Source: a virus. Taken from it: a stretch of DNA of 42,966 nucleotides. The translations under genes and the position numbers were made by a program. This document shows, in pieces, positions 10,330 to 42,570 of this stretch (position 1 is the stretch's first letter; each line of letters begins with the position of its first letter). The stretch spans positions 1 through 42,966 of IMG/VR virus record IMGVR_UViG_3300029893_000419; one strand, 5' to 3'. A model generated the notes under the pieces. It did no database searches and was not told the origin of the DNA. It worked only from the letters and a program-made list of their open reading frames with translations.

Positions 10330-12732
10330 CTACTTGAACTGCTTGCCACCCAGGAGGCCAGCTTCGCGTTTCAGTTGGCGCTCCACTTCCTTCGAGAGCC
10401 GGTCGGGACGTGGGTCGTCGATCTTGATGTTGACGCCGCCGTGGATATTCAGCGACGTCGGCGTCCATACGTCCTTTCCGAAGACGGCACCGGGGACCGT
10501 CATGGTGCCAAAGTTGGGTGTCGCCGTCCTGCCAAAGGGAAGGCTGGCAGCCGCCTGTTTCACCTGATTGATTTTGTTCATCAAGCCGTCCAGGTCGTCC
10601 CCCAGCCCCTTAATACCCTTCTTCAAGGCCTCCTGCGTGGCCCGCCATTCTTTTTCGGCCTCGTCGGCCGCCTTCTTGATCAGCTCTCCGGCATTGTTGG
10701 CCTCTGTTATGACCTTGTTGACGGTGGCGGGGATGTCCGGCGCCTGAAAGCCCCTCAGCCAAAGTTCGCCTGCGGAAAGACCGGCCACCTCGAAGGGTTG
10801 CTCATAAGCCTGGAGGATACGGACAATTTCCTCATAGGCGCCGGTCACTCCGGCCTTGAGTTTCGAGAGAAGCTCCATCGCCTGGCGGTCTACGGTGTCC
10901 TTCAACTCGGCGTAGTGCTGCTGGACCTGCTCGCGCTGCTGCCGCAGGGCCTCCTCCTGTGCCCGGTTCTCCTCCTCCAACCGGCGCTTCTTTTCATCGG
11001 TCTGGCGGTCGATCTCGTCCAGTTCGGCCTGTAGGCCGTCCTTTTTGGCCTCCAGCCGCCGCCGTTCGGCTTCGCGGGTACGCTCCTCCTGGATGTCGGC
11101 CAGGTCATCCATGATGGCCTTGGCCCGCTCAGGGTCGACGCCGGCGGTAAACAGTTCCTCTTTCGCGCCAGCCTCCCGCTTCTGCCGGTCGGCTTCCTCG
11201 TTGGCCTGGTCCTGGGCTTCCATCAGCCGGTCGATCTCGTCGATCTGAGCCTGGATAGCGGTCTTCTTCCGGCGCGTGGCTTCTTCCAGGGCCTCGACCT
11301 CGCGCTTGTAGTGGTCGCGGAGGCTGTCGATCTGGCGGTCGAGGCTCTTGGTCTGGGTTTTCTCCTGCTCGTCATACCGCTTCCGCAGGGCCTGGGTAAG
11401 CTGAGAGTAGAGTCGATCAACCTGGCTCACAATGCGCCGCTCTTCCTGCTTGGCGGCCTGTTCGCGGACGCGGGCGAGTTCGCGTTCCTTCTTGATAGTA
11501 TCCCCGATCGCGGCTTGCTGAGCGGCATGAGAGGCCCTCGCCGCGTCGGCCATGGACTGCTGGACTTCCTGCTGTTGTTTCTTGAGCTCGTCCATCTCGC
11601 GGCGGCGTTTGTTGGCCAGGGCCACCGAGGCCCCGATGGCTAGGCTGATACCGGCGATAACCCCGATGATCCCCTTCGAAGAGAGAGCCAGGCCCCACAG
11701 CTCCACCTTCGTGGCGGCCAGGACGCCCTTCAGGATCTGCGCCAGCCGGGTCAGACCGATAACCGCCGTCCCCAGTCCCAGGAACGCGCCGGCGGACGAT
11801 ATAGCCCCGGCCACCAGGGCGGGGTTCGCGTTGACGAGGGCTTCCAGTTCTTTAACCAGGGGGACCAGCGTCTCGTACAATCCTTCGAGAGATGGCTCCA
11901 GGGCGCCACCAATGGCGGCCTGCAGCTCCTGTGCGGCTTTGCCTGCCTGTGCCTGTTTGCCGGCCAAGGTCTCGACCATCTTGGAGGCACCGCCGGCAAA
12001 ACGCGCCGACTCTTGGAGGATACCGTTGAGGATCACTTGCCTGATGCCCGCATCCTCTGATGCCCGCATCAAATCCTGCGCAGAGTAGCCCGCCTCTTCG
12101 AGCATCAGAGAGAGGTTCTTAGTTATGCCGGCGTTGTCGACAAGGATAGAGTTACCGTTTTTTATGCCTATGGAGGCCCCTACGATGGCTTCGCCCATTG
12201 ACAGGAATCCCTGCCTGTTTAACGCAGCCGAATCCTTTAAGGCGTTAAACAAGCGGATCGCTTCCGGGAGGTTGAACCCGCTGGCGAGAAGATTGCTCAG
12301 CGCTTTGGCGGCATCACCCACGGGCACTAAGCCGTCGGCGGTCACCTCTTGCAATGCCTCTTGCACAGCCCGTTGATCTTGACCGAAGGACGCCGCCACA
12401 GAATCAAGCGCCATGGTGGCCGTTTGCAGTCCTGTGTAAGCCTCAATTGCCTTGTTGACTTCGACGACGAGGCCCGCGAAGGCGGCTCCTGCGGCTAAAC
12501 CGGCCGCATTCATGTCGCTGGCCAGGCGGCCAGCCGCATCGCTGGCCTGATTCATCGCCCGGCTGGCAGCCTCGGCCCCCGCCTCGGTCTGCGCGCCAAA
12601 CTGCTCCCCAGCCTGGCCGGCCTGTTGGGTGGCGCCGCCGGTCTTCTCTACCTCACTGACGATCTTCTGGAGGACGGGAGTGGCGGCGTCGATAGCTTTC
12701 AGGAGGATTTCGATCTCGTTGCGGCCGGCCAT
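10330..12732 (-). CDS. Tail tape measure protein
   Basis: 800 residues from ATG 12732, preceded by GGAAGGGG. The N-terminus (EIEILLKAIDAATPVLQKIV) and the following Ala/Gly-rich region with hydrophobic stretches (GAISSAGAFLGLGTAVIGL, GIIGVIAGISLAIGASVALA) are typical. A long charged coiled-coil region (roughly residues 400-620, KKQQQEVQQ to EEALRQQREQVQ) follows, then a C-terminal region with EIVRILQAYEQPFEVAGLSAGELW. Tape measure proteins set tail length and help DNA entry. Usually the two frameshifting tail chaperone genes lie just upstream; here that space holds two oppositely oriented genes instead. Confidence 0.88.
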   Translation of the reverse strand: MAGRNEIEILLKAIDAATPVLQKIVSEVEKTGGATQQAGQAGEQFGAQTEAGAEAASRAMNQASDAAGRLASDMNAAGLAAGAAFAGLVVEVNKAIEAYTGLQTATMALDSVAASFGQDQRAVQEALQEVTADGLVPVGDAAKALSNLLASGFNLPEAIRLFNALKDSAALNRQGFLSMGEAIVGASIGIKNGNSILVDNAGITKNLSLMLEEAGYSAQDLMRASEDAGIRQVILNGILQESARFAGGASKMVETLAGKQAQAGKAAQELQAAIGGALEPSLEGLYETLVPLVKELEALVNANPALVAGAISSAGAFLGLGTAVIGLTRLAQILKGVLAATKVELWGLALSSKGIIGVIAGISLAIGASVALANKRRREMDELKKQQQEVQQSMADAARASHAAQQAAIGDTIKKERELARVREQAAKQEERRIVSQVDRLYSQLTQALRKRYDEQEKTQTKSLDRQIDSLRDHYKREVEALEEATRRKKTAIQAQIDEIDRLMEAQDQANEEADRQKREAGAKEELFTAGVDPERAKAIMDDLADIQEERTREAERRRLEAKKDGLQAELDEIDRQTDEKKRRLEEENRAQEEALRQQREQVQQHYAELKDTVDRQAMELLSKLKAGVTGAYEEIVRILQAYEQPFEVAGLSAGELWLRGFQAPDIPATVNKVITEANNAGELIKKAADEAEKEWRATQEALKKGIKGLGDDLDGLMNKINQVKQAAASLPFGRTATPNFGTMTVPGAVFGKDVWTPTSLNIHGGVNIKIDDPRPDRLSKEVERQLKREAGLLGGKQFK

Positions 12733-37811: not shown

Positions 37812-38513
37812 ATGGTTATTGTGGAGCTGGACACCTCGGGGTATGAAGAGCCTCCTCTCACCTATTTGTTCCACGATGAGAGCGGCCTGCCCAAAAACGG
37901 AGACGTGTTCATCTCTGGCTTTCTTATGATTGCTAAACCAGCCATAGGGATTATTCGGCGAAAAATTCAAGATGTGCTTGCAGGCTTTCACTTTAACAAC
38001 GAACTGCACTTTACGAAGATGTCCAATTTAAGGTTCAAGGTATACCAAGCCGTCATCGAAACCCTGATGCCGCTTGACTGGCGTTTCCATTCGATCGTAG
38101 TCCAGAATAATCTTCTCGACCTTTCACGGTTTGGGGGTTCCCCTTACCGCTGCTACAATTTTTTTACCCGGCTTCTCATTCAACACCGAGTCGCCGAGTG
38201 TGGGGACATCTTGATTTTTACGGATGAAAAGAGCCGGCTACGCGAAGACAATTTTCTAGATTATTTGCGGGCTGAACTAAACTTTCAGTCGTGGATGGGT
38301 GGTTTCGGGTACCAGGTGAAGCGGGTCATTCCGGTTTCATCGAAGCGGTCTCTGTTTATTCAGTTGGCGGACTTACTCCTGGGCGTAGTTAATACATGGG
38401 AAACCAGGGGGTTGCATGGGGAAGACAGAAAAAGCAGGATTGCCAAATCCGTCTATTACTCGCCTTACCGTTCAAAGATCAACGTCTGGCGTTGGCGGCC
38501 CAAAAAGAGTTAG
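37812..38513 (+). CDS. DUF3800 protein
   Basis: 233 residues. The DUF3800 hallmarks are present: YLFHDESGLPKNGDVFISG with Asp and Glu near the start, DILIFTDEKSRLREDNF in the middle, and SLFIQLADLLLGVVNT near the end, together giving an RNase-H-like acidic centre. The family is widespread beside mobile elements and is often linked to defence; its biochemical role is not settled. The gene is clearly lower in GC than most of the window, suggesting recent acquisition. It lies just after cI and could be a lysogenic conversion gene. Confidence 0.8.
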   Translation: MVIVELDTSGYEEPPLTYLFHDESGLPKNGDVFISGFLMIAKPAIGIIRRKIQDVLAGFHFNNELHFTKMSNLRFKVYQAVIETLMPLDWRFHSIVVQNNLLDLSRFGGSPYRCYNFFTRLLIQHRVAECGDILIFTDEKSRLREDNFLDYLRAELNFQSWMGGFGYQVKRVIPVSSKRSLFIQLADLLLGVVNTWETRGLHGEDRKSRIAKSVYYSPYRSKINVWRWRPKKS

Positions 38514-38691
38514 GCGACGGTGCCTACTACCCCTCCCAAACCGGAGGGCGTTCGACCGGCGCCGCCGCCCACTTATCGCAGGTTATCCTGCGACAGGTGC
38601 CTCGCGACTATATTATCGCCCTTGAGGCGTAGAAAGTCAATACCACAAGAACTTGATCATGTCAAGGGATGCTTATACCATATGTAGGGCT
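38514..38691 (+). other. Non-coding region with hairpins and tRNA-like blocks
   Basis: Downstream of DUF3800 there are two perfect hairpins: CCCTCC/GGAGGG (38531-38536 with 38543-38548) and TCGCAGG/CCTGCGA (38576-38582 with 38587-38593). ATCGCAGGTT plus ATCCTGC at 38574-38590, and CAGGTGCCTCGC at 38594-38605, repeat parts of the T arm and anticodon arm of the tRNA that lies on the opposite strand at 38692-38766. No protein is convincing here. Confidence 0.45.
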
Positions 38692-38766
38692 TGGAGGCGG
38701 CGGCAGGAATCGAACCTGCGATAGGTGTTTGCGAGGCACCTGCCTTTGCCACTTGGCTACGCCGCC
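38692..38766 (-). tRNA. Cys-type tRNA with abnormal anticodon loop
   Basis: A complete cloverleaf with encoded CCA. The acceptor GGCGGCG/CGCCGCC, the D arm GCCAAGTGGCAAAGGC, the T arm GCAGG-TTCGAAT-CCTGC, and discriminator U73 are those of tRNA-Cys. The anticodon arm reads GGTGC-CTCGCAA-ACACC if the loop has seven bases, giving anticodon CGC (Ala codon GCG) and a C31-A39 mismatch. With a perfect AGGTG/CACCT stem the loop would have nine bases and still contain GCA. Acceptor position 3-70 is C-G, not the G-U expected of tRNA-Ala. It lies between DUF3800 and the integrase gene. Confidence 0.8.
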
Positions 38767-38778
38767 ATCCAGGTAGTA

Positions 38779-38808
38779 ATCTTACCATCTTCACCGGCTT
38801 TCGGACAA
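38779..38808 (-). promoter_or_regulatory. Candidate tRNA promoter
   Basis: On the minus strand TTGTCC (38808-38803) and TAAGAT (38784-38779) are spaced 18 bp, ending 12 bp before the tRNA 5' end. This suggests the tRNA is expressed from its own promoter. Confidence 0.45.
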
Positions 38809-38833
38809 GTTATTCCAAGGGGGAGTATCAGGA

Positions 38834-40051
38834 ATGCCCTCCGGCCATGTCCGTAAACGGGGAGAACGCTCTTGGGCCATCATCATCGAACTGGGCCGCG
38901 ACCCGGTGACGGGTAAGCGCCAGCGCCGCCACTGGGAGACCGTCCGCGGAACCAAGCGCCAGGCCGAGGAACGGCTGCGGGAGATTCTGGCCGCGCTCAA
39001 GGCGGGCACCGCCGTCGAGCCGCACCGGGAGACGCTGGGCGAGTACCTGGAGCGGTGGCTGCGGGATTACGGCCAGGCCCGTTTGGCGCCGAAGACCCTG
39101 GAGAGCTACACCGACATCCTGCGGGCGTTCGTAATCCCGGCCCTGGGCCATGTGCCGCTCCAGGCCCTCCAGCCGGCACACCTCCAGAGCCTCTATGCCC
39201 GTCTCCTCGAATCCGGGCGGCGCGACGGGCGCCCGGGCGGGCTTTCGCCCCGCACCGTCCACTATATCCACAGGGTGATCCACCGCGCCCTAGAGGTCGC
39301 GGTCAAGCTGCAGCTTGTGCCCCGCAACGTCGCCGATGCGGTGGAGCCGCCGCGGGCCCGCCGACCGGAGGCCACGGCGCTTGACGCCGAGGGCGCCCGC
39401 CGACTGCTGGAGGCCGCGGATGGGCACCGCCTCTACCCGATCATCCACCTGGCCCTGCACACCGGCCTGCGGGCGGGGGAGCTGCTCGCCCTGCGCTGGG
39501 AAGACGTCGACCTGGACCGCGGCATCCTGCAGGTCCGGCGCACGCTGCAGCGCCTCCGAGGCCAGGGCCTGCACGTCAAGGAACCGAAGACCGAGCGCGG
39601 GCGGCGCACCGTGGCCCTGCCGGCCTCCGCCGTCGAGGTTCTGCGCCGGCATCGCCGGCAGCAGGCCGAGGAGCGTCTTGCCGCCGGCCCCGACTACCAG
39701 GACTATGGCCTCGTCTTCTGCTGGCAGGACGGACGTCCCCTCGACCCCTACGGCTGGCTCACCCATGCCTTCCGCCGCCTGGCCGACCGGGCGGGGTTTC
39801 CGGGCCTGCGGTTCCACGACCTGCGGCACACCCACGCCACCCTGCTGCTCCTCGGAGGCATCCACCCCCGCGTCGCCCAGGAGCGCCTCGGCCACAGCGA
39901 CATACGCACGACGCTCGAGCTCTACTCCCACGTCGTGCCCGGCCTCCAGGAGGCCGCCGCCGCGAAGATCGACGAGCTACTGGGACATACTGGTGGGCGT
40001 CAATTGGGCGTCAACGGCGCAAAAAAGCCGCCTTCACGGCGGCAGTCATGA
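38834..40051 (+). CDS. int: Tyrosine integrase
   Basis: 405 residues from ATG 38834 (GGGGGAG upstream). The N-terminus is an AP2-like arm-binding domain (RSWAIIIELGRDPVTGKRQRRHWETVRGTKRQAEERL). The SAM-like core-binding domain (TLGEYLERWLRDYGQARLAPKTLESY) follows, then the catalytic domain with Arg213 (HTGLRAGE), Lys249/252, His328-x-x-Arg331 (HDLRHTH), His354 (LGHSDIRTT) and Tyr364 (LELYSHV). All key residues are intact. The last codons contain the left arm repeats of attP, whose core follows 33 bp after the stop. Confidence 0.93.
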   Translation: MPSGHVRKRGERSWAIIIELGRDPVTGKRQRRHWETVRGTKRQAEERLREILAALKAGTAVEPHRETLGEYLERWLRDYGQARLAPKTLESYTDILRAFVIPALGHVPLQALQPAHLQSLYARLLESGRRDGRPGGLSPRTVHYIHRVIHRALEVAVKLQLVPRNVADAVEPPRARRPEATALDAEGARRLLEAADGHRLYPIIHLALHTGLRAGELLALRWEDVDLDRGILQVRRTLQRLRGQGLHVKEPKTERGRRTVALPASAVEVLRRHRRQQAEERLAAGPDYQDYGLVFCWQDGRPLDPYGWLTHAFRRLADRAGFPGLRFHDLRHTHATLLLLGGIHPRVAQERLGHSDIRTTLELYSHVVPGLQEAAAAKIDELLGHTGGRQLGVNGAKKPPSRRQS

Positions 40052-40268
40052 ATCTCGAAAGCCTTGCGGCTCTAGGTGTTTAAGTGGCGCGCCCTGGAGG
40101 ATTCGAACCCCCGACCTACTGATCCGTAGTCGGTCATCGATCCTCAGACGCAAGCCGATGATAGCCGATGACGCCGCGAAAATCAAGACATTGGCTGTTG
40201 GCGGCATTGGCGTTTTACGCTCAAATCGGACGCCCGCCGATGGATTTGGGCGTCAATTTGGGCGTCGA
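39994..40268. other. attP region with flanking arm-type direct repeats
   Basis: TGGGCGTCAA occurs at 39994-40003 and 40005-40014 on one side, and at 40247-40256 with TGGGCGTCGA at 40259-40268 on the other. The spacings are 11 and 12 bp. Between them lies the 3' half of a tRNA-Arg gene (40085-40132). Paired direct repeats on both sides of a tRNA-derived core, next to int, is the classic attP layout. Confidence 0.72.
40085..40132 (-). other. tRNA-Arg(ACG) 3' half, att core
   Basis: The minus strand gives the anticodon loop CTACGGA, the T arm GGGGG-TTCGAAT-CCTCC, the acceptor AGGGCGC, G73 and CCA. The 5' half is missing and similarity ends within the anticodon stem (one mismatch at the position 29 pair). 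Integration would restore a host tRNA-Arg. Confidence 0.8.
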
Positions 40269-41844: not shown

Positions 41845-42570
41845 TCAGGGCCGGCTGATCCGCACCGTCCGCGATCCCGCGTCCCACGCGACCCGAGCCC
41901 CCAGCGCCTCGGTGACCTGGCGCACCGGCGCCCAGGCCCGCCCGTCGATGATCTGGCCGTCCGTGACGACGACCTCCATGCCGGCCCCCTCGACGACCAC
42001 CCGGCAGGCCGGCGGCTGTGGTGCGCCCCGCAGGTCCAGCAGGCGCCACGTCCGCATGATGCCGATGATCTTGTCCGCGTACCGCGGATCGGTCGCGTAC
42101 CCCGCCGCCTGGATGCACCGGGCGTAGGCCGCCACGTCCGTGGCCGGCAGACACCGGGCGTAGCGAGGCGAGGTCAAGAGCCGGGCGTGGTCGTCCAGAC
42201 TCTCCTGATAGCCGGAGTAGGCGCGGAATCGGGCTTGCACCCGCACCCACTGGCCGCCTTGATACTCCCACGTCCACGCAGTCACGGCGTCTTGGCCGTC
42301 CAGGGCCTTGATCCCGAAGAGGTTATGGCTGTACCGACCGGTCTCGATGTCTTTCGGCACCGAGCGCCCCCAGCCGCTTTCCAGGGCGGCTTGGGCGACG
42401 ATGAACCCGGCGGGGATCCCGGTACGGGCGTCCGTCGCCAGGGCGGCGTCACGGAGGGCCACGACGAACGCCCGCGGCCCCTCGGCATCGGGCAACTGGG
42501 CCACGGCGAATTCGTCCGGCCGGCTGCCGTCGTCCGGCTCACCGGCCCAGAGGGTCATGATCTCGTCCAC
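41845..42570 (-). CDS. Glucosaminidase with C-terminal copper-amine-oxidase-N-like domain
   Basis: 241 residues from GTG 42570, three bases after the upstream stop. Catalytic region: GIPAGFIVAQAALESGWG with Glu in ALESGWG, YSHNLFGIKALDG, and FRAYSGYQESLDDHARLL. The last 60 residues (VVVTDGQIIDGRAWAPVRQVTEALGARVAWDAGSRTV) are a copper-amine-oxidase-N-like beta domain common in Gram-positive surface proteins. It is a diverged copy of the gene at 1-602, identical only over 41972-42042. Confidence 0.85.
   Translation of the reverse strand: MDEIMTLWAGEPDDGSRPDEFAVAQLPDAEGPRAFVVALRDAALATDARTGIPAGFIVAQAALESGWGRSVPKDIETGRYSHNLFGIKALDGQDAVTAWTWEYQGGQWVRVQARFRAYSGYQESLDDHARLLTSPRYARCLPATDVAAYARCIQAAGYATDPRYADKIIGIMRTWRLLDLRGAPQPPACRVVVEGAGMEVVVTDGQIIDGRAWAPVRQVTEALGARVAWDAGSRTVRISRP

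Follow-up and report, generated by a model that had tools for sequence, protein, structure and literature searches.

The 42,966-nucleotide stretch of viral DNA analysed here (the window; IMG/VR virus record IMGVR_UViG_3300029893_000419, positions 1 to 42,966) holds one tRNA gene, located at 38692–38766 on the minus strand, which combines a tRNA-Cys body with an anticodon region in which the expected triplet is displaced. Judged from its sequence, this tRNA is of the Cys type and lacks the Cys anticodon. The explanation that fits best is that it is a redundant phage tRNA-Cys gene that recently ceased to decode normally but kept its fold, a reading to which we give about an even chance of being correct. 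The initial annotation of this DNA had listed decay among several possible fates of the tRNA, and it is this suggestion that the present results favor, at the same even strength.

ARAGORN called the gene over exactly 38692–38766 (minus strand) and labelled it tRNA-Ala(cgc). A covariance-model comparison, which the initial annotation had proposed as a check, returned a full tRNA with a canonical fold, the match to Rfam RF00005 scoring 60.8 bits (E 7e-11) against a gathering score of 29. The sequence of the tRNA strand is GGCGGCGTAGCCAAGTGGCAAAGGCAGGTGCCTCGCAAACACCTATCGCAGGTTCGATTCCTGCCGCCGCCTCCA. Its CCA end is encoded (38692–38694) and adjoins U73 (38695), all pairs are formed in the acceptor stem (GGCGGCG/CGCCGCC) and in the T stem (GCAGG/CCUGC), and the T loop is UUCGAUU. 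A possible weak promoter for the gene, TTGTCC-18-TAAGAT with 8 of 12 consensus bases, was read by eye at approximately 38772–38813 on the minus strand; this site fell under the threshold of the promoter scanner and is absent from its list.

The displaced anticodon region comprises positions 31–39 of the tRNA (CCUCGCAAA; 38728–38736, minus strand), as located by sequence, Rfam alignment and fold. The sequence and the Rfam alignment place CGC at positions 34–36 and GCA at positions 35–37. When the arm is read with a seven-base loop, it is GGUGC-CUCGCAA-ACACC, the anticodon is CGC, and C31 stands opposite A39 as a mismatch. In the minimum-energy fold, A26–G30 pairs with C40–U44 and leaves CCUCGCAAA as a nine-base loop, in which GCA lies one position too far 3'. 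The two registers are near each other in energy. Both forms of the arm, the mismatched stem with a CGC anticodon and the well-paired stem with a nine-base loop around GCA, had been described in the initial annotation, and both descriptions hold. A mismatch at 31:39 occurred in none of 231 distinct tRNAs drawn from the loci collected first and in 29 of 753 tRNAs on phage loci; by itself it is uncommon, not unique, and the exceptional feature is the displacement of the anticodon.

The body is clearly of the Cys isotype. With the loop masked, comparison with the same 231 tRNAs gave tRNA-Cys as the closest (score 43), followed by tRNA-Gln (32), and Ala was absent from the top 14. A BLAST search of 154 genomes of the host class likewise returned tRNA-Cys(GCA) as the nearest tRNAs, at up to 82% identity. 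The bacterial Cys determinants are U73, G2-C71, C3-G70 and G34-C35-A36, the anticodon bases being major determinants for CysRS, and those for Ala are A73, G3-U70 and G20 (identity table and text of PMC9976931). The phage tRNA carries U73, G2-C71 and C3-G70, and in the seven-base register it has C34-G35-C36 in place of the Cys anticodon. As for Ala, it has U73, C3-G70 and C20 where A73, G3-U70 and G20 are expected. In contrast, the genuine phage tRNA-Ala in L177, whose D arm is similar, carries both G3-U70 and A73. Charging of the phage tRNA with alanine would therefore be improbable, because it has neither G3-U70 nor A73. The Cys body, U73 and acceptor features read in the initial annotation are thus borne out by both the determinants and the nearest relatives.

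The relationship to the tRNA-Cys(GCA) of the Thermaerobacter class (for example in L013, L019 and L135) is close. The acceptor determinants, U73, the GCCAAGTGG...AAGGCA D arm, a short variable loop and a Firmicute-type body are common to both, and most of the bacterial genes also have the CCA end. The phage tRNA differs in having CUCGCAA instead of the CUGCAAA found in tRNA-Cys of the host class, in its 31:39 mismatch and in one extra base in the D loop, and identity over the whole is about 75–82%. Although the body departs from host-class tRNA-Cys at about 18–25% of positions, the acceptor, T and D stems are still paired; therefore, the damage is restricted to the anticodon arm.

The displaced loop is a singleton. 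The tRNA-Cys pattern was matched in 102 genomes of the host class, all with the loop CTGCAAA, and one additional match (G086) does not have the appearance of a tRNA-Cys. No Cys body with the displaced loop was found in the 154 host-class genomes, nor did the displaced loop turn up in 398 genomes of the phylum. Several patterns were also run against IMG/VR, where at least 120 stretches have the normal tRNA-Cys loop and no Cys body with the displaced one was found; the other matches there proved to be coding or other sequence, a partial piece in L053 and the true tRNA-Ala of L177. The L053 piece, in a viral record at about 11225–11275 on the minus strand, is a tRNA-like 3' portion with the loop TCGCAAA (C33 before GCA) that ends in TCCA. 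ARAGORN made no call on it, and it is possibly a fragment of an attachment site.

The window carries the genes of a temperate phage, including portal, terminase, tape measure, primase, an S24-type repressor and a tyrosine integrase, and its hosts are Thermaerobacter-like heat-loving bacteria. Comparison with catalogued phages and plasmids gave no DNA match. The tRNA gene sits between the integrase gene (38834–40051, plus strand, divergent from the tRNA; PHROG 1 integrase E 5e-84, PF00589) and a gene for a DUF3800 protein (37812–38513, plus strand; PF12686), which adjoins the repressor as well as the tRNA and belongs to the PADLOC candidate defence family PDC-M04A (PDLC04353, E 4e-19). The attP core (40082–40131, minus strand) corresponds to tRNA-Arg(ACG) in its 3' part, anticodon arm to CCA end, and its 50 bp are identical to attB in the tRNA-Arg gene of a metagenome-assembled genome that bears the label Thermaerobacter marianensis; within the genome collection, a 47-bp portion of the core matched no record other than this one. 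Repeats of TGGGCGTCAATTGGG at 39994–40019 and 40247–40261, on either side of the core, are likely arm-type sites of the integrase. The contig ends (1–70 and about 41972–42042) are near-identical and then diverge, which suggests either that lysis-type modules are duplicated or that the genome is near-circular and varies between strains. A related prophage fragment is present in a genome of the host class (G002), with a primase 60–62% identical. The initial annotation had held that a normal tRNA-Cys in the host or in a related phage, with the present sequence as an error, would speak against its reading of the gene; relatives of the host do keep a normal tRNA-Cys, whereas this prophage, the only relative identified, lacks a tRNA in its integrase region.

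The formal CGC anticodon on a Cys body raises the possibility, also put forward in the initial annotation, of a missense tRNA that inserts cysteine at GCG codons. Such a tRNA would leave GCG at conserved Cys positions and away from conserved Ala positions, and codon conservation contradicts this. GCG accounts for 333 of the 9,346 codons (3.6%), and when the window was aligned to the related prophage, 25 of its 77 GCG sites faced Ala and only one faced Cys, while TGC codons faced Cys at 12 of 21. In the integrase, relatives have Ala at GCG sites as often as at GCC sites. We observed that GCG sites face Ala less often than other Ala codons do (25/77 versus 97/183, p 0.003), a deficit that is absent in the reciprocal comparison and comes with no shift towards Cys. 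Because GCG is common and aligns with Ala, not with Cys, the conservation pattern indicates that GCG codons of this phage are decoded as alanine. A tRNA-Ala(CGC) is encoded by a bacterium of the host class itself, and CysRS, moreover, relies heavily on anticodon bases (PMC9976931). These results contradict recoding of GCG as cysteine, and we consider a missense role extremely improbable.

The explanation that we favor, the recent lapse of a redundant tRNA-Cys gene, would require a change from CUGCAAA to CUCGCAA, either through a C inserted after U33 and the loss of one A or through replacement of exactly the bases at 34–36, in addition to U31 to C. The transcript would be expected still to fold and to mature with its encoded CCA end. 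Since G34-C35-A36 for CysRS and A73 with G3-U70 for AlaRS are missing, poor charging and little part in decoding would be expected, and the tRNA probably reads no cysteine codons now. The gene appears to have been long under selection for its fold, because its other helices show paired differences from host tRNA-Cys, and the lapse would have come recently, with the host supplying its own tRNA-Cys. We infer the recency from the same pattern. No relative with an intact version of the tRNA at the same place is known that would fix the direction and time of the change. The intact cloverleaf, the encoded CCA, the clustering of damage in the loop and the preserved length can equally be read as signs of selection for a new role.

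One such role would be that of a working variant, in which the arm adopts the nine-base loop, CysRS still sees GCA at 35–37, and the codon read is UGC, or UGCG by way of a +1 shift, much as for extra-base frameshift suppressors. The minimum-energy fold is indeed the nine-base register, with an intact GCA followed by AA, 31:39 mismatches are tolerated in the 29 of 753 phage-locus tRNAs noted above, and +1-frameshifting tRNAs with an extra base, such as SufB2, are a documented precedent (PMC7803779). The phage tRNA resembles the SufB2 type in that its anticodon loop is altered and the triplet displaced. However, the length of the phage arm is unaltered, without the net extra base that classical frameshift suppressors have, and the phage tRNA is natural, whereas the suppressors were selected. 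The closeness in energy of the two registers also means that the loop is not locked, and no frameshift site requiring this tRNA was identified, a search for such a site in the tail genes having given nothing usable. On balance, we regard a working variant as possible, though unlikely. We are more doubtful that the loop change was selected as an escape from, or a decoy for, a host anticodon nuclease. Phage tRNAs often carry anticodon-loop changes relative to the host at positions that nucleases cleave (PMC10264068); this phage-borne tRNA also differs from its host counterpart in the anticodon loop, and the adjoining DUF3800 protein belongs to a candidate defence family. In the published pattern, however, the anticodon is kept so that the phage tRNA replaces the cleaved one, whereas a tRNA that has lost its anticodon is no simple replacement for a cleaved host tRNA-Cys. 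A similarly low probability attaches to the idea that a tRNA-Cys that CysRS cannot charge, with GCA one base off and a UCCA end, has evolved as an effector or a variant decoder; it might, for example, present a permanent 'uncharged tRNA-Cys' signal to a host Cys T-box riboswitch, or read UGC or UGCG with an altered frame. Two loci of the host class (L152 and L170) have a T-box whose specifier appears to be UGC (Cys), upstream of a gene that inspection by eye suggested to be cysE. An error of sequencing or assembly in this metagenomic contig is very unlikely. The loop is known from one record and the phage has no second copy, yet an error would have to consist of an insertion plus a deletion, or of three to four substitutions, within nine bases of an otherwise perfect tRNA, and the word CAGGTGCCTCGC recurs at 38594–38605, perhaps by coincidence. 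Two other candidates were rejected. A permuted tmRNA gave a weak Rfam match (16.4 bits against a gathering score of 47) that rests mostly on the T arm, and the tRNA lacks the Ala determinants. Derivation of the loop from the anticodon arm of tRNA-Ala(CGC), which is present in a bacterium of the host group, does not agree with the loop there (UUCGCAU) or with its different stem.

The place of the gene beside an integrase recalls tRNA-dependent lysogeny, in which the attachment core measures 8–17 bp and does not restore the host tRNA, and the phage carries a tRNA of the same isotype (PMC10865867, including Table 2). Like those phages, this one is temperate and has a lone tRNA adjoining its tyrosine integrase. 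It differs from them in that the attP core is 50 bp long, runs through CCA and rebuilds tRNA-Arg, and the carried tRNA is of the Cys type, not that of the Arg attachment site. The 50-bp tRNA-Arg core rules out tRNA-dependent lysogeny as a present function. The gene might nevertheless be a relic of an earlier system of this kind, in which the phage once integrated in tRNA-Cys and carried the replacement gene, and exchange of the integrase for one that uses tRNA-Arg left the gene free to decay. Besides the layout of a single tRNA by the integrase (PMC10865867), related integrases in the class adjoin many different tRNA genes, and one of them (L140) is located 3' of a tRNA-Cys and tRNA-Val pair; against this, no remnant of an attachment core derived from tRNA-Cys was found. 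Such a history strikes us as rather improbable. It concerns where the gene came from, does not compete with the recent lapse of a tRNA-Cys gene and proposes no function of its own; an earlier lysogeny system is a possible source of the gene that the layout alone suggests.

Between the DUF3800 gene and the tRNA, a repeat search located pieces identical or near-identical to tRNA segments 52–71, 40–54 and 25–36 (gene numbering), arranged in reversed order at 38550–38605 on the plus strand, opposite to the tRNA. None of 2000 shuffles was as rich in words shared with the tRNA. We read these pieces as the remains of rearranged tRNA copies. On the minus strand at 38505–38640, a promoter-like TTGACT-17-GATAAT (38640–38612) and a terminator-like hairpin (38526–38511) enclose about 100 nt that fold strongly, which makes this region a candidate small RNA overlapping the reversed pieces. 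An antisense action of this structured RNA on the tRNA found no support, since the interaction energy of the folded forms was matched by 39 of 300 shuffles and was not better than chance.

If the lapse is recent, the case carries a caution for annotation: software labels the gene tRNA-Ala, yet the tRNA is of the Cys type and neither identity is complete. Codon supply, nuclease evasion and lysogeny are the usual explanations for phage tRNAs, and none of them neatly accounts for an intact body with a displaced anticodon. If instead the gene is under selection, it would offer a natural test case for phage tRNAs that do not decode or that alter the reading frame.
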